Source: Jimgerdemannia flammicorona (taxonomy: Eukaryota > Mucoromycota > Endogonomycetes > Endogonales > Endogonaceae). Taken from it: a stretch of 17,837 bases of DNA. Positions within the stretch are counted from its first letter, which is position 1, and the number at the start of each line of letters is the position of its first letter. The stretch is from contig RBNI01002669.1 in NCBI GenBank assembly GCA_003990745.1, positions 1 through 17,837 on the forward strand, written 5' to 3'. Of this stretch, positions 1-15,656 are shown piece after piece. A program made the position numbers and the translations under genes. The notes under the pieces are model-generated. The model was not told the DNA's origin. It made no database searches and saw only the letters and a list, made by a program, of their open reading frames with translations.

Positions 1-1863
1 AAAAAAAAACCAACTAGGTGGTCTTGTTCTCAGATTTTTCTAGTAAGCCATTCAGGCAGGGCATCAAATAAATGGTCTGCTCTTGTACCATTTCATGCTT
101 CATCATTGGCAATATATCCTAGGCCAACAGTGTTCAGGAGTGACTTGAGTTTTGTACAGAAGGTTTCAAATTCTTCCTTGCCATATATATCAAATTTGAG
201 GTTGCGGAGTTTTACTTGAGATTCAGCGATCATGGTTTCACTACAGTATTGAGCAATCATGAGTTGTTTGAGTCCAGGGGCTGCAGGATGGGCTCCATAT
301 CCTGGGATATTGTTTGCTGTATTCTGAGCAACTACTGTGGATCAGGTGTCCTATATGAGAAATTTTTCAGGAAGAGTTCACCACCATTCTTCAGCAGGTC
401 CTCAGAAAAATGTAACAACTCAGCAGACATAGGCTGTAGTGATAGCAAAGAGTTGTTCCAGAGTGTGGTCTTGATTGTTTGTCAGAAAGTAGTCAGCAAC
501 TCGCTCATTGGTCCATTGATTGGCTTCAAAGTTGGTATCAACTACACTAATAAAGCTTTGGACTTCTTGTGCAGTACCATTGAAGGTAGGTAGGCTCAGA
601 TTTTTGGTTGGTTGGGTCTGTTCAGCTAAGGTAGTAATGGTTGCTACCATTATTGCTACCTGGGCTATGAGGTCTAGAATCTATTGGTTTGCCATGTTGT
701 TTACTGGAGGTGATTAGATTACTGGTAGTAGTATTACTGGTACTACTTGAGGTACTAGTGCAGAGTGTGAGAGTGTTCTTTGGGTGTGTGTAAGTTGCTA
801 GAGTAATAGTTGTAGGTCTGGAGTAAGGGCTCGATAGATAGCTATCTGTTTCTGTATAGGTGTATTCTGTCCTAATAGAGGTGTGTCTTCTTCTGTGGTG
901 TATCCAGAATCAAATTCACTGAGATACTCCTCCTCCTCTTTGGTTTGGTCCCCATGTAATTGGGTTTGCTTGGCATTAAAGTAGACAGAATCAGTTGTAT
1001 ATCTGATTTCGAATAGACTTAATTCAAAGTCAAGTTCTGGTTCAGTATTAGTTTTGGGTTCAGGTAGAGCAGTAGCAGGGCCTACTTCTGGTTCAGAGTC
1101 AGATTGTTGATGAAGGGTTTCTCTTGCTTCTTCTTTAAGAATATGGCAGGCCTTACTATTCTGGAATCAGTAGTATAATATAGTCTTAGTTCTGGTATGA
1201 TGAAAGTCAGTAGAGTTAAGCCACTTGGCTACAGAGGCTTGGGCTTCATGAGGAACTAAGGCTAGAAAGACTGCTGCTGGTTGTCCTAGGTTGCTCGAAT
1301 TTGTGGAGCTGACAAAACTCTTGTTGAGAAGAGTAAAGAAGGCTTCTATAAGACCTTCTTCATCCTGACTTGCTGGGTGTAGTGCAAGGAGTTCGGTGAA
1401 TAGGAGTTCATCTATTTGCTGGTTTAATCAGAGTACTTCTTTCTTTGAATGAAGTTTGTCCCACTTGTTGTAGGTGTGGAGGTCAAATTGTCCTTGTATG
1501 TCAGGTTCAATTCTCTCCAGATTATCAGATGGTTCAGGATAAATTCCAATTCAGAGGTTGGGCTTTATACCAACTTGTAGGAATTCTCAGAGTGGTTTTG
1601 TAGCAGGGTGAGGAAGTGTCTTGAAGCAGAATTGGATTGTAAACTGCTGCTACCAAGTTGTAAGAGGGTTTCTTTTTAGGGTAACCATTACATAGTTCTG
1701 GAAGAGTTTCTGGAAATTTTGGATATTCTGGAAGACTGTTTTCCTATGGTCAAGATCAATTTCATATAGAGTATGTCCTCTATACTTATTGATTTTAAAA
1801 TCGGGTTGACATCTCAACTAAAGTCTTTTTTCGGACTAGTTCTGGATGTTCAGGATTTTCCAT
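1..1863 (-). pseudogene. Gag-type polyprotein of gypsy-2 with long N-terminal extension (decayed, partial)
   Basis: A minus-strand frame is readable from an ATG at 1863 (MENPEHPELVRKK) to the left window edge. It is interrupted by a probable indel near the TTTTAAAA at about 1795-1800 and by scattered stops. The capsid-like part begins near 695 (MANQ) or 650 (MVATITTLAE). It includes LPTFNGTAQEVQSF, a typical opening of fungal gypsy Gag proteins, then a Trp-containing stretch and EEFETFCTKLKSLL and LFDALPEWLTRKI. Before it lie about 390 codons without a recognised domain, rich in Glu/Asp near 890-1100 (TKEEEEYLSEFDSGYTTEED). The stops fall where Arg, Gln or Trp codons would fit. Gag would form the particle that packages element RNA. 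Whether the first 390 codons belong to the same protein or to a separate gene is open. Confidence 0.65.
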
Positions 1864-1916
1864 ATTTCAGGAAGTTCAAGAAACTAAGACCAGCTTAGTT
1901 GAATTGGTGTATTGCT

Positions 1917-1930
1917 GCAGACAATACCCA
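1917..1930 (-). other. candidate primer-binding site of gypsy-2
   Basis: The minus strand reads TGGGTATTGTCTGC, beginning with the TGG that pairs with the CCA end of a tRNA, between the presumed LTR end and the Gag start. The primer tRNA was not identified and the spacing from the presumed LTR end (14 nt) is long, so this is tentative. Confidence 0.3.
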
Positions 1931-2015
1931 ATTAGGAAATTTCGTGACAGGGTTAGGAGTGGGACCTAACAGGGAGCAGATTTACTTAAGAGTGATTTAT
2001 GGATTATTAAATAGG

Positions 2016-2021
2016 TTTATT
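2016..2021 (-). terminator. AATAAA poly(A) signal in gypsy-2 LTR
   Basis: AATAAA on the minus strand lies about 130 bases past the second TATA box, between the embedded frame and the Gag gene. This is the place expected for the R/U5 part of an LTR. Confidence 0.4.
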
Positions 2022-2148
2022 CACTATTCATAATATTGCTATACTAGGAGTAGTTGTATAAAGGGATATTGTGGGGAAGTGCTCAGGGGTTGTGTTCAGA
2101 TTGTTCTGGTCTGTTTAAGTCTGAGATTCTGAGGTCTGAGGGAGGGGG

Positions 2149-2156
2149 TATTTATA
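2149..2156 (-). promoter_or_regulatory. second TATA box of gypsy-2 LTR (Gag-side promoter)
   Basis: The minus strand reads GTATAAATACCCCCTCCC. The same GTATAAATACCC core occurs at the equivalent place in both gypsy-1 LTRs (6697 and 13942). It lies after the LTR frame and before Gag, so it could start a transcript that skips the LTR frame. Confidence 0.5.
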
Positions 2157-2224
2157 CTAGTGAGGGACTATCTGGACTATACTGAATATGGATATAGCAC
2201 TAAGTGCCTTGCTGAGTTAGAATA

Positions 2225-2265
2225 CAGTCATATAGTATAAGGCTAATCTAACTATACTATGACTG
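2225..2265 (-). repeat. inverted repeat just after the gypsy-2 LTR frame
   Basis: CAGTCATATAGTATA (2225-2239) pairs with TATACTATGACTG (2253-2265), with a two-base bulge and a 13-base loop. It begins about 18 bases beyond the stop of the LTR frame on the minus strand. It could be a transcript hairpin or a protein-binding palindrome. Gypsy-1 has short palindromes in tandem at the same place. Confidence 0.55.
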
Positions 2266-2282
2266 CTAAGCTATTTATAGGT

Positions 2283-3380
2283 TTAGATGCTGTCTGGATA
2301 GTCCTTGATGACATCACTATCAATGACATCATCTCTGATGAAGTAGTCATCTAGAAAGAGTGGTTCACAGATTACTTCTCCTTGTTCACTGAGGTAATAA
2401 TACATTGGGACTTCATCACCATCTCACAGGATTGTATCATCTGTTTCATATGCTGGATGAGATATTGGTGAGTGAAGGAGGAGTATATAGCCTTTACTTT
2501 CATTAGATTCACTGTCTGCATACCTTCTATAGGTTATAGCACTATGAGTCACAGGGTTGTAGTAAGCTGGTGGCTGTGGTTCATATCACTCATACTCAGG
2601 TAGTAGAGTTGTCAGTTCAATCTCGAGGATTGTTTGAAGGTATAGATTGTGTTCTCTGATCTCTTCATTATAATTAAAGTAATCAGAGATGAATATGGGT
2701 TGGTATTCATACCAGTGATCATTGTCCCAATAAGTCTTATATGCTGTTATGAACTGTTGTAAGTTCATCAGCAAGATTGGCAGTGTGATCAGGGTTGGTA
2801 GAGATCCTTGGCTTGAGGTCATGTCAGCATCAGAGAGATCATTGTCTTCTGCTTCATCTTCATCGAAGTGGATTATATTGTAGACATCCTTCATGGCATA
2901 TCCAACTTGAGGCATTTGCAGGATATGGTTATTCAGGTGTGGAAAGGTTCTGTCTGTAGTTTCAATGTACTCAAGGTACTTGTGGTTGAGTTCTTGTATC
3001 ATGTTGTTGATTTGGCCATAGGACAGAGTAGCAACCATTTCAACAATAGTAACTCAGAGGCAGGGAATAACAGTACTATACTTGTAGAAGAGTTCTCGAT
3101 GTTTGTGGGTGATGAGCTTCTCATGTTGAGACATCTGGGTAATGTCTATATCATGGTAGTATTCGACCATGTCTTCTAGGAGGCAGCCAATCTGGTAGTA
3201 GCTTGAGATTTGTCTGATTTGGTAGGTCTCATCGAGTATATTCAGGGTATTCCATCAGGCTTCCATGAAGTAGAGAGGTGCTAGGCTATGGATATTCATG
3301 AGGGGCAGAGGGGGTGTAGCTTAGTTGATAATGGCATTCCAAATATCAGCGCGGATGTGGTTGTAGATCTCAGTGGTCAT
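2283..3380 (-). pseudogene. LTR-embedded ORF of gypsy-2 (365 codons, five premature stops)
   Basis: The frame opens at ATG 3380 (MTTEIYNHIRADIW, A at -3) and stays in one frame for 366 codons to TAA at 2283-2285. It is broken by one TAA and four TGA codons, each explainable by a single transition from Gln, Arg or Trp. No known domain, signal peptide or membrane segment is evident. An acidic stretch (FDEDEAEDNDLSDAD) lies mid-protein, and the C-terminus contains FIRDDVIDSDVIKDYPDS. It is related to the gypsy-1 LTR protein: both have Y-x-I-G-x-L-L, then D-I-T-x-M followed at identical spacing by E, K, F and I-P-x-L, and later L-S and I-N, for 15 identities in 52 ungapped positions. The C-terminal DDVI..DVI..(F/Y) pattern is also shared. 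Function unknown. Confidence 0.75.
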
Positions 3381-3450
3381 ATTTGTGTATATTTGGAAGT
3401 TATAGTTGTTGTTTGTTTTGGTTCTCTGCTTTGATGCATCTCAGTGCTTG

Positions 3451-3458
3451 ATATATAT
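3451..3458 (-). promoter_or_regulatory. TATA box ahead of gypsy-2 LTR ORF
   Basis: The minus strand has GCATATATATCAAGC about 75 bases before the ATG at 3380. The corresponding TATAAAA in gypsy-1 lies about 85 bases before its LTR frame. A second AT-rich candidate (TATAAATA, 3641-3648) is farther out and may belong to the flank. Confidence 0.4.
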
Positions 3459-3654
3459 GCATTTGGTCCTGATTAGTAAGATTCTGTTTGTGTAAATCTT
3501 GTATTCCATGACTTTGTATTGACTTAGCTTTGTGTGCTATGACTTTGGTTTGACTCAGCTTTGTAATCATGCAAGTGATTTCCAGATTTGTTCAGAGGTT
3601 ACGTGTGATTTCAGTAGCTTGGAGATTGTATGCTTATAGATATTTATAGATGAC

Positions 3655-4829: not shown

Positions 4830-4860
<31 letters not shown>
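4830..4860 (+). repeat. poly-T tract, 31 T
   Basis: An uninterrupted run of 31 T separates the copia Gag remnant from the LINE reverse-transcriptase sequence that starts at once to its right. It could be a microsatellite, or the poly-A tail of a minus-strand retroposed fragment seen from the other strand. Confidence 0.9.
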
Positions 4861-5387
4861 CTATATCTACTTAGTATTAAGATGACAACTCAATATATCA
4901 ATATATGACTTATGCTATTCTATCAGATTTATATTATTCATTAGTAATATATAAAATATATAACCTATATAACTTCAATAAAGTATCTCTCTTTTACTAC
5001 AGCAATGATTTTATATAATGAATATTATGGTATCTCATTCTTATTAGAGAGAGAGATTTCTTAGAGAGATCTACTGTCTCTTATTCTGTATACTTTATCA
5101 TTAGAGCTATTAATAAACAGGATTTGCTATAAGATATCAAAGCTTCCAGTCTTAGAAATTGTCTGGAAGGTTGGAGTCTTTATTGATAATATAGTAGTTA
5201 GACTTAGTTCTATTGATAATATTAGTGAGCTGAGGGCTACTATAGACTAATATAAGGAGTGCTCTGGGGTGAAGCTCAACTAGTATAAGTGTGAGATAAT
5301 GGTACTAAAGAATGATTTAATAGATAGAAATATTGTAGAAACTATTGTCTCTATAGAGAAGATATCTGGGTATATTTCTATTAGTAT
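4861..5387 (+). pseudogene. LINE reverse transcriptase, first part (interrupted by gypsy-1)
   Basis: One plus-strand frame (first base 4861, codon phase of 5041) reads through with a few stops. At 5017-5079 the residues line up without gaps to the non-LTR RT block N-G...F.L.RG(V/I)RQGDPLS: Asn, Phe, Leu, Arg, Asp, Leu and Ser are kept, while Gly, Pro and Gln positions are changed to Glu or Arg, Leu and a TAG (5062), all single C-to-T or G-to-A changes. Then come ILYTLSLELL, FIDN (5179-5190) at the position of the F/Y-A-D-D catalytic box, and SGVKLN (5263-5277), the conserved block that follows it. The enzyme would copy LINE RNA at the nicked target. Two catalytic-box residues have changed, so this copy is dead. 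The 5' end of the LINE is missing, apparently truncated at the T-run. Confidence 0.8.
5384..5387 (+). repeat. target-site duplication of gypsy-1, left copy (GTAT)
   Basis: GTAT lies directly before the left LTR (TGTAATGG) and recurs directly after the right LTR at 14179-14182. A fifth base (A) also matches if the LTR is taken to end one base earlier. Confidence 0.85.
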
Positions 5388-5542
5388 TGTAATGGTGACT
5401 CCAGAATGATGACATCAGCATAGGAGACAGCCTTTCCTCGCAAGCCACCAGATTGGAGCACAAGAAGATTATATGGCATATGAGATGGGCAATGATGACT
5501 AACTATGAGTCATTGTGACCACAGCACAAGCATCCTGAAGAA

Positions 5543-5549
5543 TATAAAA
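5543..5549 (+). promoter_or_regulatory. TATA box ahead of LTR ORF, 5' LTR
   Basis: TATAAAA lies 87 bases before the ATG at 5630 and is unchanged in the 3' LTR (12792-12798). The LTR frame start has a favourable AAACAAAATG context. Confidence 0.55.
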
Positions 5550-5629
5550 GAAGGATCAAGGAACTGCAGTAGTAGCAACCAATAAGAATCACCAATCCCA
5601 AAATAGCTCAAAGACTTACTACAAACAAA

Positions 5630-6488
5630 ATGCCTGCTGTCTGCCAAACCTCAAGGTCAAGGAACCACCAAGATACCTCAGTCAAAGAAAGGATGTTCCA
5701 AGACATCAGAAGAGCCATGAGGACCCACTTAAGAAGGACTCCTAGTATCTATCTAGGTACTGCAGACCCTTATCACTTCATTCTCTACTACCATGAAATA
5801 CGTAGAAATAAGGATCACCATTGCTACCAAATACCTCCAAATATGGCAGGAGTACAAAATAGGAAACCTCTTCTGCTGGAAGTTCCCACAGGCCAGCACC
5901 CAAGAGCTATAAGATACCACTCCCATGGATATATGCAAAATGAGGACAGCTAAGAAGATCCATCAGATCTTCAGGCATGCACCATGGTCGATCCCCAACT
6001 TGGAGTATGTTAGAGTCTTGGACTTCAGAGACCTGTCATCCTGCTGTATCAATGCACTAGAAGCCAGGGTGGCTACAGAAGCCCAGTCCACTATCACTCT
6101 CAACAGTGAAGAAGTAGAAGACTTCTGGCACCCCATCCTCCAGGACAACCCAGACCAATTCCTGCAAGGATTGATCTCAGTATTCCAAGGCCCAAGCATC
6201 TGGGTTAGATCTCCCCAAGACCTCACATTTGTCCCCTATTTTGTGGAAGAGAACCTCATAGACTGGAGAGCTCCAGACCTTGTTCCCGATTTTCCTGCCA
6301 CAGCCGAACGTGATGATGTCATTGGCGATGATGTCATCCCTCATGACTTCGACATACATGAGACATGCGATATACCTGAAGTACGTGAAATGCATGACCT
6401 GCATGACGAATTTGTGGATCTCATCTCCTTCAGTAATGATGATGATGATGATGAAGAAGCCCCCATGGTCCTGAACTTTCTGCTCTAA
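5630..6488 (+). pseudogene. LTR-embedded ORF, 5' LTR copy (frameshifted)
   Basis: Begins MPAVCQTSRSRNHQDT and ends EEAPMVLNFLL, as in the intact 3' copy at 12879-13733. A 4-bp insertion creating TACGTA at 5799-5804 shifts the frame, and a TAA at 5910 (CAA in the 3' copy) adds a stop. The second half then stays open from 5925 to 6488. Many codons differ from the 3' copy by replacement changes (for example Asp to Gly, Cys to Tyr, Gln to Trp), as expected for mutation without selection after insertion. See the 3' copy for motifs. Confidence 0.85.
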
Positions 6489-6496
6489 GTTCTTTG

Positions 6497-6636
6497 TTAC
6501 ACCAGATAATGCCAGCACCAGTATTCTCATATAACACTGGATAATGCCAGCACCGGTATTCTGAGGTGATACGAAATTATTCCAGCACTGGCATTTTGAT
6601 GTGATACCAAATAATACTAGCCCTGGAACTTGGTAG
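6497..6636 (+). repeat. four 35-bp tandem repeats after LTR ORF, 5' LTR
   Basis: Units start at 6497, 6532, 6567 and 6602, each of form (T)(A/G)A(C/T)AC...AATAATGCCAGCACCGGTATT. Each has a palindrome-like core near CCAGCACTGG; the last unit is the most diverged. They begin nine bases after the LTR frame stop (TAA 6486-6488). Confidence 0.85.
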
Positions 6637-6696
6637 TTTTAGTTATTGAAATTTATATTTAGCTTTATATCTTAGCAACCATTGAATTATATTTTG

Positions 6697-6729
6697 TATA
6701 AATACCCATCTTATTTCCTCTAAAATAAA
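6697..6729 (+). promoter_or_regulatory. second TATA box and AATAAA, 5' LTR
   Basis: TATAAATA at 6697-6704 is followed by AATAAA at 6724-6729. The TATA box would place a start site near 6725-6735, downstream of the LTR frame, giving a Gag-Pol transcript without it. AATAAA in the 3' LTR would end transcripts. If transcription instead starts from the first TATA box (5543), the LTR frame would lie at the front of the genomic RNA. Confidence 0.5.
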
Positions 6730-6927
6730 GTCAGTTCTGGTTTTACTTACACACACTTCCTTGCAAGCAATCTAAGAGATAACAAGATAGTTAAAGATAA
6801 GAAGTTTGAGGACTATAAGACCTTGGGAAGGCACTCCAATAAGAACTTGCTTATAACAACTTGAGTTAGTCTAAGAGATACACCTTGAAGAGAATCTGGC
6901 ATATTTGAAGGACTCAGCGACCACTAC

Positions 6928-8316
6928 ATGACAACTTGGTGTCCATTAGCTAGTGATTCAAGATGAATCCCTCACTTTCAAGCTGAAAAACAAACAACCC
7001 CCACAACAACTACCCTGACTACAAGAGTTACCCCTGCAAGAATTCAAGACAAGATGGAAATACACCCCCCTATATTCTATGGATATACTACTGAAGAGTC
7101 AATCCTGACCTTTATTGAAGACTTTGAACAATTCGCCACTATACGAGCCCTTGGTGTGGATGCTCAATTGGCCCTTCTACCAGTCAGCCTCAGAGGACCT
7201 GCTAGAGACAAGTTTAATGCAGCCACTATTGCTGGTGCTGATGCAGTCAAACTTGGCAATATGAAGGACTTCCTCAGAACAACATATTATACCGAAAAGA
7301 TCAAGCAAGCTCTCAAGGATTAACTCAATACTATCTGCCAGGGACTTAGTGAAGATTCCAACTCATTCTATACCTGAATCTGCCATCAGATTGTCTTGGC
7401 TGACTATGATGACTACCTCAAGGAACAAATAGCGGATTCAACCTTCCTCAAAGGAGTTCACCCCGAAATTGCTCTAGCAATCTGATCTACCCCAGCTGCA
7501 CTGACCCTTGATCAGAAAGTGGTCTTTGCACAGAGATATTGGACTGCCAGACACCCTGCTGAACACTCAATGGAGAAAATAACTGGCATCAAGATGGAGC
7601 CATCAAAGCCAACTAGTATCTTACCTGCTACAGTTGTGAACAGACAACCAACCACACCTACCCCCAAGACAGCCAAAGCTGACCCAGTGGAAGAACTTGC
7701 CAAGCAGTTTGCTAAGATGACTGCACACCTTGGTGATGTTGTTAGAGAAGTCCGAAGCACCAACAGGAGACCAGTGCAGAGATTTGCAGCTGCTACAGAA
7801 GAATGCAATAACATCACATGCTTCAGATATAGAGAAGAAGGCCACTATGCAAAGAATTACATGACTGAAATAAGACACAAAGCCCAACTAAGCAATGCTA
7901 GCAGAACCAGAGAACAAACCAATGCAGTAGTCATTGAGGAGATTGGTGACACTGATGATGAAGAATACTATGAGAAGCTCAAATTCTACCCTGCTACTGA
8001 AGGTACCAGAACCCAGTCCAAGCCCTATGACAAGAAGAGCAACAGCAAGCCAGTTGGAAGACCAAAGAAGACCCCAGCTGTCACCATTCAAAGCAAGACC
8101 CAACCCAAGGAGATTGATCAAGACATGGAGTTAGATGAAGCTGCCCACCAAATTATTGAAGGCACTACTCCAGTCTCAGGAGAAAGTGAAAGCAAGAAGG
8201 AACAGAAGCTGCACAAGACCAAGATCCACCAGTATGATATCTACAAGGATCTCAAGGAACAGAAGGTCAATGCCACTTTTGGATAACTAGCTGAAGTCCC
8301 TGCCTTCAGACAGCAG
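6928..8316 (+). pseudogene. gag: Gag (capsid/nucleocapsid) of gypsy-1, decayed
   Basis: Gag would assemble the particle. The start is uncertain: ATG 7054 opens the clean frame (MEIHPPIFYGYTTEES), but the same frame continues upstream through a TGA at 6964 to an ATG at 6928, inside the last bases of the LTR. The capsid part (about 7054-7560) has ILTFIEDFEQFATI and LPVSLRGPARDKF, typical of gypsy Gag. A zinc knuckle at 7819-7860 reads C-F-R-Y-R-E-E-G-H-Y-A-K-N-Y, where two of the three Cys have become Tyr by G-to-A. Stops at 7321 (TAA), 7375 and 7483 (TGA) and 8284 (TAA) interrupt it. A charged Lys/Glu-rich tail follows the knuckle and leads in frame to the protease. Confidence 0.85.
6937..6953 (+). 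other. primer-binding site of gypsy-1
   Basis: TGGTGTCCATTAGCTAG starts three bases after the LTR end (GACA-ACT-TGG). TGG pairs with the tRNA CCA end; the implied tRNA 3' end is ...GGACACCA. The primer tRNA was not identified, and it does not look like initiator-Met. Confidence 0.7.
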
Positions 8317-8820
8317 TTGAGAGTAGGACTTGCAACTACCACCAAGAATCAAGAGTACAAGATTGTAGAAGCTCACAATGCACAAGAAGAATCCGAGAAC
8401 TCAGGTAAAGAATCTGAAGACCAGCACAAGACATCAGCCTATACCCCCTGCCAGATCGAAGACTGTATCTTTGATGCCATCATTGATACTGGTGCTGGAG
8501 GATGCCTCATGAGCAAGAAGGCAATTGACTGCCTAGGTTGGGATATTGAAGAGTCCACCAAGATGGTCTATGTCACAGCAGATGGTATATGAGCTACCCC
8601 CCTTGGCAAAATCTGAGAAGTCCCCATCAAGATAGGAGGAGCTACCATCTCAGTAGATGTGATTGTTACAAGCGCCACCAATTATGACATCCTCATTGGC
8701 AACCAATGGCTTCACAAGGCCAGGGCCATCATTGACCTCAATGCCCAGAAGATGCAGATCAACTACAGAGGAAGAAAGGTATGAGTCTCTATCAATGTCC
8801 ACAAAGGAGTCCTACCAGAC
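8317..8820 (+). pseudogene. retropepsin-like aspartic protease of gypsy-1 pol
   Basis: The protease would cut the polyprotein. In the shared frame, IEDCIFDAIIDTGAGGCLMS carries the catalytic D-T-G-A (8485-8496) after a hydrophobic strand. Farther on, TNYDILIGNQWLHKARAIID is the conserved second half (usually I-L-G-x-x-W-L). TGA stops at 8590, 8614 and 8782 each fit a former CGA Arg codon. The upstream stop at 8284 means the ATG at 8317 is only the first one in the surviving segment, not a true start. Confidence 0.85.
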
Positions 8821-9141
8821 ATGGAGGAAGAAGATGAAGAAGATACAGAGGTCTTCATACACTCAGTGAACAAGAACAAGAGCAAGACACCCAAGCTCAC
8901 AGATGAGCAGTGGTACAACAAGATCATCGATGGCTATGCCCCTCAAGGAAGATGCCCCCATGGTACTAGGATATACTGCTCTGAACACCTGAATGACTGC
9001 TGGTCCTATATCAGTGAAGTCAGGAAAATCTGCCAACAGAAACATGAGCAAGAAGCCACTGAAGCAAAAAGGAAAGCTGAAGAAGATGACCAGCCCCCAG
9101 AGCTTTAAGCTGACAGTGACGATGAGGAGGAACAAGAATCA
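8821..9141 (+). pseudogene. linker between protease and dUTPase with Cys/His cluster
   Basis: Same frame as its neighbours. It opens with an acidic stretch (MEEEDEEDTEVF), has a Lys-rich part, then GRCPHGTRIYCSEHLNDCW, in which three Cys and two His lie within 17 residues, suggesting a small metal-binding fold. It closes with a Glu/Lys-rich helix (QEATEAKRKAEEDD) before a TAA at 9106. I do not recognise this segment as a named domain. The Cys and His codons have survived mutation here, unlike in the Gag knuckle. Confidence 0.55.
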
Positions 9142-9573
9142 GACATCACCCTCAAGGTCAAAAAGTTTTACCCCGAAGCCAAGATCCCAGAATACAAGAC
9201 TGAAGGAGCCATAGGAATGGACCTTGCCAGCATTCAAGATGCTACCCTTGAACCACAGACCACCACTCTACTTGGCACTGGAATTGGAGTCAAGCTACCA
9301 GAAAACCATATCAGAATTATCAAGACCAGGAGCAGTTTGGCCAAAAGCGAAATCTCAGTTGAAGGAGAAGTAATTGACCCTGATTATACTGGCAAGATCT
9401 TCCTCATAGTCAGAAATCACAACCACACCACTCCCTTCAAAGTCAAGAAGCATGACAGGATTGGCCAGATGCTGATCCACGAAATCAAGAAGCCCAAGAT
9501 CATTGAAGCCATCGAACTCATCTAGACCAAGAGAGGAGAACAAGGCTTTGGATCTACTAGAAGAGGAGCCTAT
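9142..9573 (+). pseudogene. dUTPase (trimeric type) domain within gypsy-1 pol
   Basis: dUTPase hydrolyses dUTP to dUMP and pyrophosphate, limiting uracil in newly made DNA. All five family motifs appear in order: A-I-G-M-D-L-A (9208-9228), T-R-S-S-L-A (9325-9342), V-I-D-P-D-Y-T-G-K with the catalytic Asp and the Tyr (9370-9396), D-R-I-G-Q-M-L (9454-9474), and R-G-E-Q-G-F-G-S-T (9532-9558), the C-terminal lid that closes over the substrate. Total length of about 140 residues is normal. A single TAG at 9523 separates motifs 4 and 5. The domain lies in frame between protease and RT, so in the ancestor it was part of the polyprotein. Similar placement is known in some retroviruses (between RT/RNase H and integrase in lentiviruses, at the protease in others) but is uncommon in fungal gypsy elements. 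Confidence 0.9.
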
Positions 9574-10668
9574 GCCGCCACCAAGATTACCAAACTTGAG
9601 CACAAGAAAGACAAGGACCAGAACAAGCACACATATACTATTAGAGAAAACTTTCCCCTGGAGGAACAACTTCTCAAGATCCTGCACCAGAATGAAGGAG
9701 TACTTACTACAGACTTTAGGAATATCTACAATCAAGAACCCAAGTACTACCATGAAGTTGACACCGGTGATACCAAGCCTATCTACCAGAAAGCCAGATC
9801 CATACCACCTGTCTACAGAGAGTGGCTGCGAGCAGAACTCAAGGAAATGGAAGAAGTCAGAATCATCAAGCAAGCTATCAGCCCCTGGGCCTCACCCATT
9901 GTCCAAGTCTCAAAGAAAGGAAGCAAGCCTGGAGAGTTTGTGCCAAGACTCTGCATTGACTACAGGAAGCTCAATGCCATCACCAAGAAGGATAGGCAGC
10001 CCTTGCTGAATATTCAAGAAATCCTTACCACTCTTGGAAGTGAAGCCAAATACTACACCACCTTGGATTTGTTCTCAGGCTTCCATCAGATCGGTCTCAC
10101 TCAAGATGCCAGTGAGAAATTAGCCTTTATCACACCTGATGCCACCTATATCTACCTGTGAATGCCATTTGGAATATGTAATGCCCCAGCAAGTTTCCAG
10201 TGAATGATGAACAGAGTCTTTGGCAATGAGATTGGAAAATGGCTCTTTGTCTATGTTGATGATGTGATCATCTTTAGCAATACTACACGGGAATATGTCA
10301 ATCACATACAGCTAGCCCTCAAGAAGCTCAAGAAGTATGGCCTCTACATTAAGCCCAAGAAATGCAAGTTTGCTGCTCAAGAAATTGCCTACCTAGGACA
10401 CCTCATCAACCAGACTGGAATTCACACAGACCCCATGAAGATTGAGACTGTTGCAGCCTACCCAAGACCCAGAACAACCACAGAAGTCCATGCCTTCCTT
10501 AGACTGGCCAGCTACTACAGAAGATTCATCAAAGGATACTCCAACATTGCAGCACCTATCTATGAGCTACTGAAGAAGGAGACCAAATTTGAATGGACTA
10601 AGGAGCACCAAGAAACCTTCAATAAACTCAAAACCAGGTTGACTCAAGTACCCATTCTCAGAAGACCA
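9574..10668 (+). pseudogene. reverse transcriptase of gypsy-1 pol
   Basis: Copies element RNA to DNA. The lead-in HEVDTGDTKPIYQKARSIPP and the fingers motif SPWASPIVQV are typical Ty3/gypsy. LCIDYRKLNAIT (about 9952-9987), TLDLFSGFHQIGL (first catalytic Asp), M-P-F-G-I-C-N-A-P-A-S-F-Q, and Y-V-D-D at 10252-10263 (catalytic pair) are all present and in order, followed by YLGHLI and the thumb. TGA stops at 10159 and 10201 stand directly before MPFG and directly after FQ, positions that are often Arg in relatives, fitting CGA-to-TGA. No frameshift occurs in this domain. Confidence 0.95.
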
Positions 10669-11049
10669 GACTGGAACCTAGAATTCATCCTGCAGACAGA
10701 TGCAAGTACTATAGGACTTGGAGCAGTCCTAGCTCAGAAGAAAGATGGACATGAATATGTCATCTCCTATACAAGCCAAGGTACCTGTGGAGCAGAACAG
10801 AACTATGAGTCATGCAAGCTTGAATGCTTAGCAGTAGTTTGGGCAGTAGACAAGTTCCACTACTACCTAGTTGGGAAACACTTCACCATTCAAACAGACC
10901 ATTCCACTCTTGCCTGGCTATTCCACACTTTGAACTCCAAAGGAATATATACCAGATGGATCTACAGGCTGCAAGAGTATGACTATACTGTCAAGCACCA
11001 CTCAGGAAAGACCAACACCAATGCTGATGCACTCTCAAGGACACCCTGA
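10669..11049 (+). pseudogene. RNase H of gypsy-1 pol
   Basis: Removes the RNA strand from RNA:DNA hybrids. Acidic residues are in place: Asp in LQTDAS (10699), Glu in KLECLA (10822), Asp in IQTDHSTL (10897) and Asp in NADALSR (11026). The usual Ser-Arg-Gly after the first strand reads TSQGT, an Arg-to-Gln change as expected from CG-to-CA. The frame ends at TGA 11047, and the integrase continues one base out of frame. Confidence 0.92.
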
Positions 11050-11050
11050 A

Positions 11051-12323
11051 ACACCCCCATCAAGACCATTCAATATGAATAAGGAGCTATACTATGGATT
11101 AATCAGCTACCTTGGGCAGCAGAAGATGCCCAACCACCTCGAACCCTGGACAATCACTATCATCAACTGGAATTGGAAACAGTTTGAATTAGACAACACT
11201 ACACTCAGAAAAGGAGGAAAGCTAGTAATATCCGAACACAAGAAGTATCAAGTAATGAAAGAAGTACATGAGCAAGGACACTTAAGAGGAACCAATACAT
11301 ATGACAAGGTAAGAAGAACTATGTGGTGGCCCAAGATAGAAGAAGATCTGCGCCAATTTGTCAAAGGGTGTGACAAGTGCCAAAAACAGAAACAAGATCA
11401 GTAAGACCAGACACCTGGGTTATTCAAGAATTGAGCCTATTCCCTTCCACCACATCGCAATGGATATCATTGGACCACTACCAGTAACACTATCAGGAAA
11501 CCACTATATTATAGTTATTGTAGACCTCTTCACCAAATGGATAAAGGCAGGAGCATTACAAGAAGCCAATGCCCTCTCTATAGCCGACTTCCTGCACCGA
11601 GAAATCATCTGCTGCTACAAGACACCAAAGCAAATCACCACAGACCGCAGCACAGAATTTGTCAATGGATTCCATGAGATAATGTATCAGAAATACAAGA
11701 TCCAGCACATCAAGACCACCATGTACCACCCTCAAGGAAATGGACAGACAGAAAGAACCAACAAGACTCTCAAGAACATCCTAGCGAAGATCTCAGAGAC
11801 ATATGAGAATTGGGATAACTATCTCCCAACCGCCCTCTCTGTCCTACGAGACATATGGTCACAGAGCACATATTTTACTCCAAGAGAGCTGCTCTTCAGA
11901 GAAGAAGATTCTGATGGAACCTCAGCCACAAATCTAGACCTAACTTGGAGATAGATTGATGCAGAAATCCAGAGACTACACCAAATCAGGAAGAAGGCTG
12001 AAGATTATATCACCAAGTCACAAGTACTGATAAGAAAGAATGCAGAAAAGAATCATAAGGCCCTAGAATCCATCTGAATTGGAGAAAAGGTTCTACTGTA
12101 TCAAAATATGGTAGAAGCCTCATGGTCACGAAAACTGGAGCCCAAATGGGAAGGACCCTTCTACGTGCAAGATATCAAGGGAACTATCTTCTGGCTTAGA
12201 AAAATCTTAGGGACTATACTGCCTACTACAGTACACAGGAACAGACTCAAGAAGTATTATGAACCTATACAAGAGAAGCAAAATGTGATGACCGCCTGTG
12301 AGGTTCTAGTCTGCGAATTGTAA
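11051..12323 (+). pseudogene. integrase of gypsy-1 pol (frameshifted)
   Basis: Inserts element DNA. The N-terminal zinc domain has His at 11267 and 11279 and Cys at 11369 and 11378 (H-x3-H, C-x2-C), in a frame one base off RNase H. Near 11380-11404 the frame shifts again. The core then shows Asp 11463 (AMDIIGP), Asp 11643 (TTDRSTEF) and Glu 11751 (GQTERTNK), giving D-x59-D-x35-E. Gly after the second Asp has become Ser. TAG at 11952 and TGA at 12075 interrupt the C-terminal part, which still has the GPF motif (KWEGPFYV, 12153-12161) and HRNRLKKYY. The frame ends at TAA 12321. No chromodomain follows. Confidence 0.92.
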
Positions 12324-12626
12324 CAGCATGTCCTGTGACCAGCAGGCTATCTATCTGGACCATTCTCTAAGGGATACGGCACTGGCAACTACTCATCCAT
12401 AAGACTTTCATAGTCAGAGGAGTTCAAACCATCAACTGATTGATCAAGATCAGAATCAGGCCCTTGCTCTATATGAAGGGAGTGACCTTTCACCATCATG
12501 CCAAAATACAAAGGGAAGATGCCAGCCCATAAACACCACTTTTCGACCCCTTACCAGAGGTTATGGGATCAGCAAATTTTTCAGGACTGGACCAATGAAT
12601 AAGGACACTCAGGAAGATCCTTATTC
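12324..12626 (+). other. 3' untranslated internal region of gypsy-1
   Basis: No secure gene. Two very short frames are visible: plus-strand 12498-12602 (34 codons, MPKYKGKMPAHKHH...) and minus-strand 12389-12496 (35 codons, MVKGHSLHIEQGPDSD... ending NSSDYESLMDE). Neither has a recognised domain and both may be chance. Confidence 0.5.
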
Positions 12627-12636
12627 AGGAGGAAGA
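12627..12636 (+). other. polypurine tract of gypsy-1
   Basis: AGGAGGAAGA, all purine, directly abuts the 3' LTR start (TGTAACAG). This is the primer for second-strand synthesis in LTR elements. Confidence 0.85.
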
Positions 12637-12791
12637 TGTAACAGTGATCCCAGAATGATGACATCAGCACAGGAGACAGCCTTTCCTTGCAAGCTACCAG
12701 ATCGGAGCACAAGAAGATTATACGGCATATGAGATGGGCAATGATGACCAACTGTGAGTCATTGTGACCACAGCACAAGCATCCTAAAGAA

Positions 12792-12798
12792 TATAAAA
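12792..12798 (+). promoter_or_regulatory. TATA box ahead of LTR ORF, 3' LTR
   Basis: TATAAAA lies 87 bases before the ATG at 12879. The box and the bases around it are identical in the 5' LTR, although flanking bases differ. Confidence 0.55.
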
Positions 12799-12878
12799 GA
12801 AGGATCAAGGAACTGCAGTAGCAGCAACCAACAAGAACCACCAATCCCAAAATAGCTCAAAGACTTACCACAAACAAA

Positions 12879-13733
12879 ATGCCTGCTGCCCACCAAACCT
12901 CAAGATCAAGGAACTACCAAGGTACCTCAGTCGAAGAAAGGATGTTCCAAGACATCAGAAGAGCCATGAGGACCCACTCAAGAAGGACTCCTAGTGTCTA
13001 CCTGGACACTGCAGACCCTTATGACTTCATTCTCTACTGCTGTGAAATGGAAATAAGGATCACTATTGCTACCAAATGCCTCCAAATGTGGCAGGAGTAT
13101 GAAATAGGAAACCTCCTCTGCCAGGAGTTCCCACAGGCTAGTACCCAAGAGCTACAAGATATCACTCCCATGGATATACGTGAAATGAGGACAGCTAAGA
13201 AGATCCATCAGATCTTCAGGCATATACCATGGTCAATTCCCAACTTGGAGTATGTTAGAGTCTCAGACTTCAGAGACCTATCATCCCACTATATCAATAC
13301 ACTAGAAGCCAGGGTGGCTACAGAAGCCCAGTCCACTATCACCCTCAATAGTGAAGAAGTAGAAGACTTCTGGTACCCTATTCTCCAGGACAACTCAGAC
13401 CAATTCCTGCAAGGATTGATCTCAGTATTCCAAGGCCCAAGCATCTGGGTTAGATCTCCCCAAGACCCCACATTTGTCCCCTATTTTGTGGAAGAGAACC
13501 TCATAGACTGGAGAGCTCCAGACCTTGTTCCTGATTTTCCTGCCACAGCTGAATGTGATGACATCATCGGTGATGATGTCATCCCTTGCGACTTTGATAT
13601 ATACAAGACGCATGACATACCTAAAGTATGTGAAATGCACGACCTGCATGATGAATTCATAGATCTCATCTCCTTTAGTGATGATGATGATGATGATGAA
13701 GAAGCCCCCATGGTCCTGAACTTTCTGCTTTAA
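12879..13733 (+). CDS. LTR-embedded ORF, intact 284-residue copy, unknown function
   Basis: The only long uninterrupted element gene in the window. It starts at ATG in AAACAAAATGCC and ends at TAA 13731. The N-terminus is basic and Ser/Thr/Arg-rich (SRSRNYQGTSVEERMFQDIRR). The middle has YEIGNLL, then DITPMDIREMRTAKKIHQIF and SIPNLEYVRV, which match the gypsy-2 LTR protein at the same spacing. VFQGPSIWVRSPQDPTFVPY follows. The C-terminus is strongly acidic, with CDDIIGDDVIPCDFD and, from a GAT repeat, DDDDDDEE, ending MVLNFLL. No signal peptide, membrane span or known enzyme motif is seen; a soluble protein with an acidic tail is likely. Its own TATA box suggests expression apart from Gag-Pol. 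Openness may partly be luck, since the 5' copy shows many replacement changes. It is not a recognised Gag, Env or transposase. Confidence 0.8.
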   Translation: MPAAHQTSRSRNYQGTSVEERMFQDIRRAMRTHSRRTPSVYLDTADPYDFILYCCEMEIRITIATKCLQMWQEYEIGNLLCQEFPQASTQELQDITPMDIREMRTAKKIHQIFRHIPWSIPNLEYVRVSDFRDLSSHYINTLEARVATEAQSTITLNSEEVEDFWYPILQDNSDQFLQGLISVFQGPSIWVRSPQDPTFVPYFVEENLIDWRAPDLVPDFPATAECDDIIGDDVIPCDFDIYKTHDIPKVCEMHDLHDEFIDLISFSDDDDDDEEAPMVLNFLL

Positions 13734-13741
13734 GTTCTTTG

Positions 13742-13881
13742 TTACACCAGATAATACCAGTACTGGTATTCTCATGTAACACTGGATAATACCAGTACTA
13801 GTATTCTGAGGTAACGCGAAATTGTTCCAGCACCAGCATTTTGATGTGATACCAAATAATACCAGCCCTGAAACTTGGTAG
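13742..13881 (+). repeat. four 35-bp tandem repeats after LTR ORF, 3' LTR
   Basis: Units start at 13742, 13777, 13812 and 13847. Same array as at 6497-6636. Here the core of the first unit is the perfect palindrome CCAGTACTGG. Differences from the 5' array are mainly GC-to-AT transitions (CCGG to CTAG). Confidence 0.85.
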
Positions 13882-13941
13882 TTTTAGTTATTGGAATTTA
13901 TATTTAGCTTTATATCTTTGCAATCATTGAATTATATTTTG

Positions 13942-13974
13942 TATAAATACCCATCTTATTTCCTCTGAAATAAA
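13942..13974 (+). promoter_or_regulatory. second TATA box and AATAAA, 3' LTR
   Basis: TATAAATA at 13942-13949 and AATAAA at 13969-13974, matching the 5' LTR. In this copy AATAAA is the likely end-of-transcript signal for Gag-Pol RNA. Confidence 0.5.
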
Positions 13975-14178
13975 GTCAGTTCTGGTTTTACTTATACACA
14001 CTTCCTTACAAGCAATCTAAGAGATAACAAGACAGTTAAAAATAAGAAGTTTGAGGACTATAAGACCTTGGGAAGGTACTCTAATAAGAACTTGCTTATA
14101 ATAACTTGAGTTAGTCTAAGAGATACACCTTGAAGAGAATCTGGCATATTTGAAGGACTCAGTGACCACTACATGACA

Positions 14179-14182
14179 GTAT
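14179..14182 (+). repeat. target-site duplication of gypsy-1, right copy (GTAT)
   Basis: Directly after the 3' LTR; matches 5384-5387. Confidence 0.85.

Positions 14183-15602: not shown

Positions 15603-15656
<54 letters not shown>
14183..15656 (+). pseudogene. LINE, second part: RT C-terminal region to poly-A tail
   Basis: This continues the LINE cut by gypsy-1. In the plus frame of 14287 the residues SILNIY, a TGA, then LSKL, a TAG and Tyr (14308-14325) match the LSxLWY block that follows RT in non-LTR elements, with Trp codons turned into stops. NRRCLDLGNFLKR (14446-14484, same frame) fits the later P-x-x-x-G-G-L-x-L block. A frame change lies between the gypsy-1 junction and 14287. From about 14500 to 15600 the sequence is purine-rich and full of TAG/TGA; no further domain (such as RNase H) was secure. 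A run of 54 A ends it at 15603-15656, as expected for a LINE 3' tail. Stops are dense, so it is long dead. Confidence 0.75.
15603..15656 (+). repeat. poly-A tract, 54 A (LINE tail)
   Basis: Uninterrupted A run ending the LINE. Its purity contrasts with the heavy mutation of the LINE body, although C-to-T and G-to-A mutation cannot change A or T bases. Confidence 0.9.

Follow-up and report, generated by a model that had tools for sequence, protein, structure and literature searches.

In the fungus Jimgerdemannia flammicorona, two families of Ty3/gypsy retrotransposons carry protein frames within their long terminal repeats (LTRs), and both frames were selected as proteins in the past. This follows from codon-position patterns confined to the frames, from indels that keep the frame in the first family and are rare in the second, and from dN/dS values in the first family. 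The frames, ORF1 of gypsy-1 and ORF2 of gypsy-2, were studied starting from a 17,837-bp stretch of DNA (contig RBNI01002669.1, assembly GCA_003990745.1), hereafter the window, and from their copies elsewhere in the same genome. LTRs are usually regarded as non-coding and as holding control signals only. A gene inside an LTR has a known precedent in layout, the sag gene of mouse mammary tumour virus (MMTV); new here are the numerous open copies, the selection tests, the same layout with two TATA boxes in both LTRs and the block of tandem repeats.

Two gypsy elements and the frames in their LTRs

Gypsy-1, a decayed element, spans positions 5388-14178 of the plus strand, with both LTRs in the window. 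Blastn self-comparison and inspection of termini placed the 5' LTR (TG...CA) at 5388-6933 and the 3' LTR at 12637-14178; the two measure 1.54 kb each and are 91.6% identical by blastn self-comparison. The word GTAT was seen by eye outside both LTR ends, at 5384-5387 and 14179-14182, and a candidate primer-binding site, ACTTGGTGTCC, is located on the plus strand directly after the 5' LTR. The decayed internal region (6934-12636, plus strand) consists of a gag-like part, recognised by position only, a weak protease match, and dUTPase, RT, RNase H and integrase pieces, the Pfam domains being arranged in the order dUTPase, RVT_1, RT_RNaseH, Integrase_H2C2 and rve. Paired TG...CA LTRs around RT, RNase H and integrase in Ty3 order place this element in Ty3/gypsy. 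Its dUTPase domain (9217-9525, plus strand; Pfam E 6.9e-17) is situated between protease and RT, and no chromodomain was recognised by eye in the 3' frames. The observed/expected CpG ratio is 0.13-0.20 across the parts of gypsy-1, a depletion that would fit old methylated repeats. It should be added that homopolymers flank the element (31 T at 4830-4860 and 54 A at 15603-15656), and that these runs account for the inverted repeats detected around it.

Gypsy-2, on the minus strand, extends into the window across its left end and is represented by one LTR (1659-3618, limits set by eye, 5' terminus missing or rearranged in the window) and by part of the gag side, a decayed 5' internal stretch (1-1658, minus strand) that is gag-side by position. 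In other genomic copies the LTR is about 2.06 kb long and is bounded by TGTAAG and CTTACA; its status as an LTR rests on same-contig, same-strand copies about 8.58 kb apart that have about 2.06 kb in common. An integrase SH3 domain (SH3_Tf2-1) and a Chromo domain were found directly 5' of the 3' LTR in one gypsy-2 copy (L059:1-880) and, together with the LTR pairs of other copies, form the basis for assigning gypsy-2 to Ty3/gypsy. The two elements differ in make, with a dUTPase in gypsy-1 and a chromodomain in gypsy-2.

As originally predicted, ORF1 (12879-13733, plus strand; 284 aa from ATG to stop), the LTR gene of gypsy-1, is wholly inside the 3' LTR, and its twin in the 5' LTR (5630-6488, plus strand) is frame-shifted, leaving the frame after about 56 codons. 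The description of ORF2 (2283-3380, minus strand) as a decayed 365-codon frame in the gypsy-2 LTR also held: it keeps one register and is interrupted by five premature stops. In other genomic copies ORF2 is intact, with exactly 365 open codons in four of those retrieved. That the frame lies entirely within the LTR and occurs in each LTR of a pair was seen directly for ORF1 and through paired copies for ORF2.

Further LTR-located homologues were looked for by protein searches of the genome from which the window comes (134.8 Mb in 7754 contigs), and LTR-type copies proved to be numerous, with at least 137 scored for the ORF1 family (138 match rows) and at least 150 for the ORF2 family (150 rows). 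The fungal nature of this genome is supported by 51 Zn_clus (Zn2Cys6) matches, a domain for which 14 control genomes gave no match; hydrophobins yielded no match here, nor did they in the controls, and a single KDZ piece was detected. By hand count, 58 of the 138 listed ORF1-family rows, two of which represent one split copy, are stop-free inside. Among the matches listed, same-strand copies of family 1 are 7246-7275 bp apart on four contigs, the window's included, and those of family 2 are 8462-8600 bp apart on six contigs. These spacings are the LTR-to-LTR distance; the remaining same-contig pairs of either family have other spacings. The search with protein P0004 returned near copies along with distant ORF1 subfamilies, the LTR DNA of which is 70-76% identical to that of the window. 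Furthermore, a protein database of 5.8 billion entries yielded relatives in metagenome assemblies (5, 1 and 2 matches) at 56-83% identity, and one at 97%, on contigs of 0.8-1.6 kb, too short to show an LTR context. By their sequences, these relatives suggest that LTR genes are not limited to one genome.

Selection acting on the LTR frames

The alignment of family 1 comprised 46 genomic loci and the two LTRs of the window, L077 having been dropped beforehand as rearranged. Indels and transversions were analysed in 45 loci, with L076 omitted as located at the same place as L069; the poorly aligned L070 and L079 were left out of the near, mid and far groups and kept in the indel count. Counted against the 3' LTR of the window, 28 of the 43 distinct indels within the ORF were multiples of three, as opposed to 1 of 24 in the LTR DNA before it and 5 of 47 in that after it. 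In the first 700 bases of ORF1, transversions had rates of.058,.010 and.065 at codon positions 1, 2 and 3, respectively (33 near copies, including the two of the window, compared with six distant ones in 198 pairs), and transversions in the LTR flanks had no codon-like period.

Rather than lying near 1, the pooled NG86 dN/dS between subfamilies, a comparison within family 1, was 0.19 (codon bootstrap 0.13-0.27). Since NG86 is biased by transition excess, out-of-frame and outside-ORF controls were used: shifted registers of ORF1 gave 0.68 and 1.17, and LTR DNA outside ORF1 gave 0.55-0.63 downstream and 0.31-0.80 upstream. One upstream register was as low as 0.31, and the dN/dS margin alone is therefore no proof of protein selection.

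Across 30 copies of family 2, shared-variant columns at codon positions 1, 2 and 3 numbered 73, 36 and 141 of 366 codons, with no such period outside the frame. Indels were more than 20-fold rarer in ORF2 than in its flanks (0.27 vs 6.9 and 5.75 per 100 bp); three distinct ones were found in ORF2, none of them a multiple of three (0/3). Ranking of the genome copies was by protein score, a choice that gives preference to conserved frames; the codon-position pattern is also present in family-1 copies chosen by DNA similarity and, in family 2, in codons outside the query stretch. Past selection for the protein, as originally proposed, is thus supported within the families, by codon periodicity, indels and dN/dS, and not by the cross-family alignment that had been invoked for it. 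We infer that the protein gene was kept by selection in transposing lineages and that individual copies decayed afterwards.

LTR layout and relationship of the two proteins

Both LTRs have in common a TATA-like box, the ORF, tandem repeats, a second TATA box and AATAAA, an arrangement absent from the original prediction. In gypsy-1 the first box (TATA-1, TATAAAAG, 12792-12799, plus strand), a candidate promoter of the LTR gene, is found 87 bp 5' of the ATG; TATAAAA occupies this place in 40 of the 44 aligned rows with letters there, and the box belongs to the 25 non-coding 12-mers best conserved between subfamilies. ORF1 is followed on the plus strand by tandem repeats with a 35-bp period (13734-13886), by TATA-2 (TATAAATACC, 13942-13951; TATAAA in 38/39 rows), a candidate promoter of the genomic RNA, and by AATAAA (13969-13974; 38/39 rows), a candidate poly(A) signal. 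In LTR numbering of family 1, TATAAAAG is at 156, the ATG at 243, the end of the stop at 1097, and, behind the 35-bp repeats, TATAAATACC at 1306 and AATAAA at 1333. The listed 25 best-conserved non-coding 12-mers do not include the TATA-2 stretch, and AT-rich DNA commonly contains words that resemble a TATA box.

On the minus strand of gypsy-2, TATA-1 (GCATATATA, 3452-3460; TATATA in 30/30 rows) precedes the ATG by about 72-80 bp (about 71 bp in copy L059), TATA-2 (TATAAATA, then CCCC) is located at 2149-2156 (TATAAA in 27/28 rows) and AATAAA at 2016-2021 (27/28 rows). The order in family-2 LTRs is TATATA box, 365-codon frame, a repeat with 63-bp lag, TATAAATACCC and AATAAA, and the word TATAAATACC at TATA-2 is common to both families. 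All aligned rows that have letters at the place in question, L076 among them, entered the signal counts; for the conservation windows L036 was omitted and gaps were counted as differences. Provided that the genomic RNA has its start behind TATA-2, the LTR gene appears to be situated in U3, with its own promoter-like box and a shared poly(A) signal.

The repeats were tested in rows with at least 100 letters in the stretch concerned. In gypsy-1, 28 of 31 near copies had enough letters, and each of these 28 scored above all of its 20 shuffles; the gypsy-2 repeats between ORF2 and TATA-2 were found in 29 of 30 copies; distant family-1 copies possess such repeats in four of six cases, with differing periods. 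Identity between near and distant copies of family 1 is 0.47 in the stretch after ORF1 and rises to 0.86 over the following 95 bases. It is as low (0.46) in the final 155 bases of ORF1, which encode the acidic tail, as in the repeats, so that the repeats are not alone in changing fast. Gypsy-2 also has a 31-bp-lag repeat 5' of TATA-1 in 29/29 copies (about 60-250 in the L059 register), which is partly missing in some copies. Palindromes in U3 are enriched in family 2 only (0.88 vs 0.12 per 100 bp); palindromic operators in family 1 were considered and rejected, the palindrome count there being equal to that of shuffles.

The LTR proteins are acidic overall, with a net charge of -20 to -47 in six sequences examined; the family-1 protein has a basic start, and ORF1 has an acidic tail. 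This Asp-rich tail is encoded by triplet runs (6436-6454 and 13679-13699), and its length differs between copies. AlphaFold2 reached a mean pLDDT of 36 for ORF1 with five relatives and of 46 for the N-terminal 128 residues of family 2, values too low for a fold search, which was for this reason not made; ORF1 is helix-rich in the very weak model obtained. The PDB searched by sequence contained no relative at E<=1, the Pfam scan of ORF1 gave one match only, below the cut-off, and scans of 10 and 17 family members gave nothing better than E 0.022; a relative of known function was found neither in Pfam nor in PDB searches. Pfam includes a superantigen model, and homology to the MMTV superantigen was not seen, as no superantigen family appeared in the scans of 10 and 17 members. 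No relative was found in IMG/VR, where records close to the window's genome may be left out.

Judging from their alignments, ORF1 and ORF2 are somewhat more likely than not to be homologous. Comparison of the two profiles with hhalign gave E 0.041 in a collinear alignment of residues 17-141 with 4-126; four of 200 column shuffles scored as well, and reversed profiles reached 20.6 and 19.2 vs 21.9. The best blastp match between the families (E 0.006) had a similar register and was equalled by 7 of 150 shuffles. Local profile alignment was equalled by 86 of 2000 shuffles (reversed 35.2 vs 37.2) and semiglobal alignment by 1862 of 2000, i.e. it was no better than shuffles; the circular-shift control (44/44 as good) is uninformative since the shift keeps the alignment. 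The DDVI..DVI pattern can be seen at the C-terminus of either protein. The shared block claimed in the original prediction was thus recovered in the same register by profile and pairwise alignments, but 2-5% of shuffles were as good and reversed profiles came close. Its profile score proved only marginally better than shuffled sequence (4/200 as good), and the further claim of one protein family is left with a similarity that is suggestive only, again with 2-5% of shuffles as good.

Alternatively, the two proteins may be unrelated and captured separately, their common layout being a convergence. We hold this to be the less probable case, though a substantial one: the marginal cross-family alignment, the nearly equal scores of reversed profiles and the different make of the elements (dUTPase vs chromodomain) all favour it, but profile and pairwise methods would then have found the same collinear register, the helices of the two very weak AlphaFold models would be at similar offsets (by eye), and TATAAATACC would recur at TATA-2 in both families, without common descent.

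Possible role of the LTR genes

Our best reading overall, a tentative one and close to an even call, is that the LTR gene encodes a regulator of the family to which its element belongs. U3 would hold a complete small gene, with a TATA-like box about 70-90 bp 5' of the ATG, an uninterrupted frame and a shared AATAAA downstream, and the upstream TATA box probably drives this gene. The genomic RNA would start at the second TATA box, 3' of the LTR gene; with its start behind the gene, each round of reverse transcription would therefore copy the gene into both LTRs, and solo LTRs would retain it. The LTR protein would act on the tandem repeats just 5' of the genomic promoter, in a host with strong CpG depletion of its elements. 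A regulator of the own family is the simplest reading because the gene is copied with every LTR and is located beside repeats next to the genomic promoter. The acidic product could, with somewhat more doubt, regulate its own family in trans, acting on the repeats most likely as an activator or as an anti-silencing factor. Less likely still is the fuller version suggested by the sequences, in which the LTR would be a self-contained cassette in U3 with a promoter, frame and terminator of its own, its product would recognise the adjacent repeats and keep the family transcribable in a methylating host, and solo LTRs would supply the product in trans to those full-length copies that survive. Ordinary enhancers, too, take the form of tandem repeats in U3, and the repeats found here may be no more than that.

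Foamy virus Bel1/Tas, which has an internal promoter, and Ty1 p22 are element-encoded trans regulators; neither takes the form of an LTR cassette in a fungal gypsy element. The VANDAL elements of Arabidopsis are not LTR elements. According to the available portions of the literature, on which all comparisons with cited work in this section draw, they resemble the gypsy LTRs in combining an element-encoded protein, VANC, with rapidly diverging non-coding tandem repeats, the VANC anti-silencing proteins binding non-coding regions that form such repeats (PMC10398659). Gypsy LTRs likewise possess rapidly diverging tandem repeats as candidate targets, a likeness of layout only; target binding of VANC was shown in Arabidopsis (PMC10398659), whereas the targets of the LTR proteins are candidates from layout.

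The LTR gene could instead be translated from spliced or full-length genomic RNA in the manner of MMTV sag, the ORF lying in U3 near the 3' end of that RNA and the product serving the particle, RNA export or target choice instead of transcription, which we consider unlikely. MMTV sag resembles the gypsy LTR genes in that a frame for an accessory protein is carried by an LTR of unusual length, about 1.3 kb (PMC3026287). MMTV differs in being a mouse retrovirus and in expressing sag from spliced RNAs that start in the 5' LTR or in env (PMC3026287); by analogy, sag is a precedent for a gene in the LTR, though with spliced expression. Its reading from spliced RNAs, with an acceptor just 5' of the frame in the 3' LTR (PMC3026287), lends weight to a genomic-RNA route, and so does the position of the ORF 5' of TATA-2, as RNA starting there would carry the ORF only in the 3' LTR. 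In both families, however, a conserved TATA-like box precedes the ORF at a promoter-like distance, which speaks against this route.

Ty1 p22 is gag-derived and interferes with particles. A similar product, perhaps also gag-derived, might limit transposition here, as its dose would rise with copy number because solo LTRs keep the gene; we regard this as improbable. The stretch P0006 of family 2 resembles a gag-side piece of gypsy-2 with a best E of 0.001, but this pairing was matched by 4 of 150 shuffles and the other three by 20, 52 and 35 of 150, and the gag origin of the LTR proteins was set aside as weak; moreover, selection for self-restraint at the element level requires special conditions. 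Finally, the frame is most improbably a by-product of LTR DNA or RNA constraint or of chance openness and never a protein gene, a reading with which the similar DNA identity of ORF and whole LTR to the window's copy would agree, but which the frame-confined codon-position patterns in two families and the frame-keeping indels of family 1 contradict.

Elements with dUTPase are known among fungal Ty3/gypsy elements, in Postia, Phanerochaete and Tuber (Tmt1), and PosPlaTy3-5 has its dUTPase between protease and RT, as in gypsy-1 (PMC2864245). A figure legend of the same paper names an additional ORF of unknown function, and its available portions contain no mention of a gene in the LTR of such elements (PMC2864245). 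The CpG depletion of gypsy-1, together with its dUTPase, recalls truffle elements (PMC2864245, PMC4165359). Rice Retrosat2 is alike in having very long LTRs (over 3.2 kb) and an extra ORF0 of unknown function, and differs in being a plant element (PMC3485330). Full-text literature searches, which leave subscription journals mostly uncovered, brought up no previous description of protein genes within fungal LTRs; as far as the available text goes, the terms 'LTR ORF' (PMC12037069) and 'non-LTR ORF' (PMC4016481) have another meaning and do not refer to LTR-borne genes.

LTRs are masked or mislabelled in TE libraries and in gene annotation. A selected protein gene in the LTRs of two gypsy families, present in many copies of one fungal genome, would, if true, make solo LTRs potential genes. 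If the cassette reading is true, its presence in two gypsy lineages would point to a modular, exchangeable LTR gene. The LTR genes would furthermore offer a testable route to the persistence of elements against DNA methylation in fungi.
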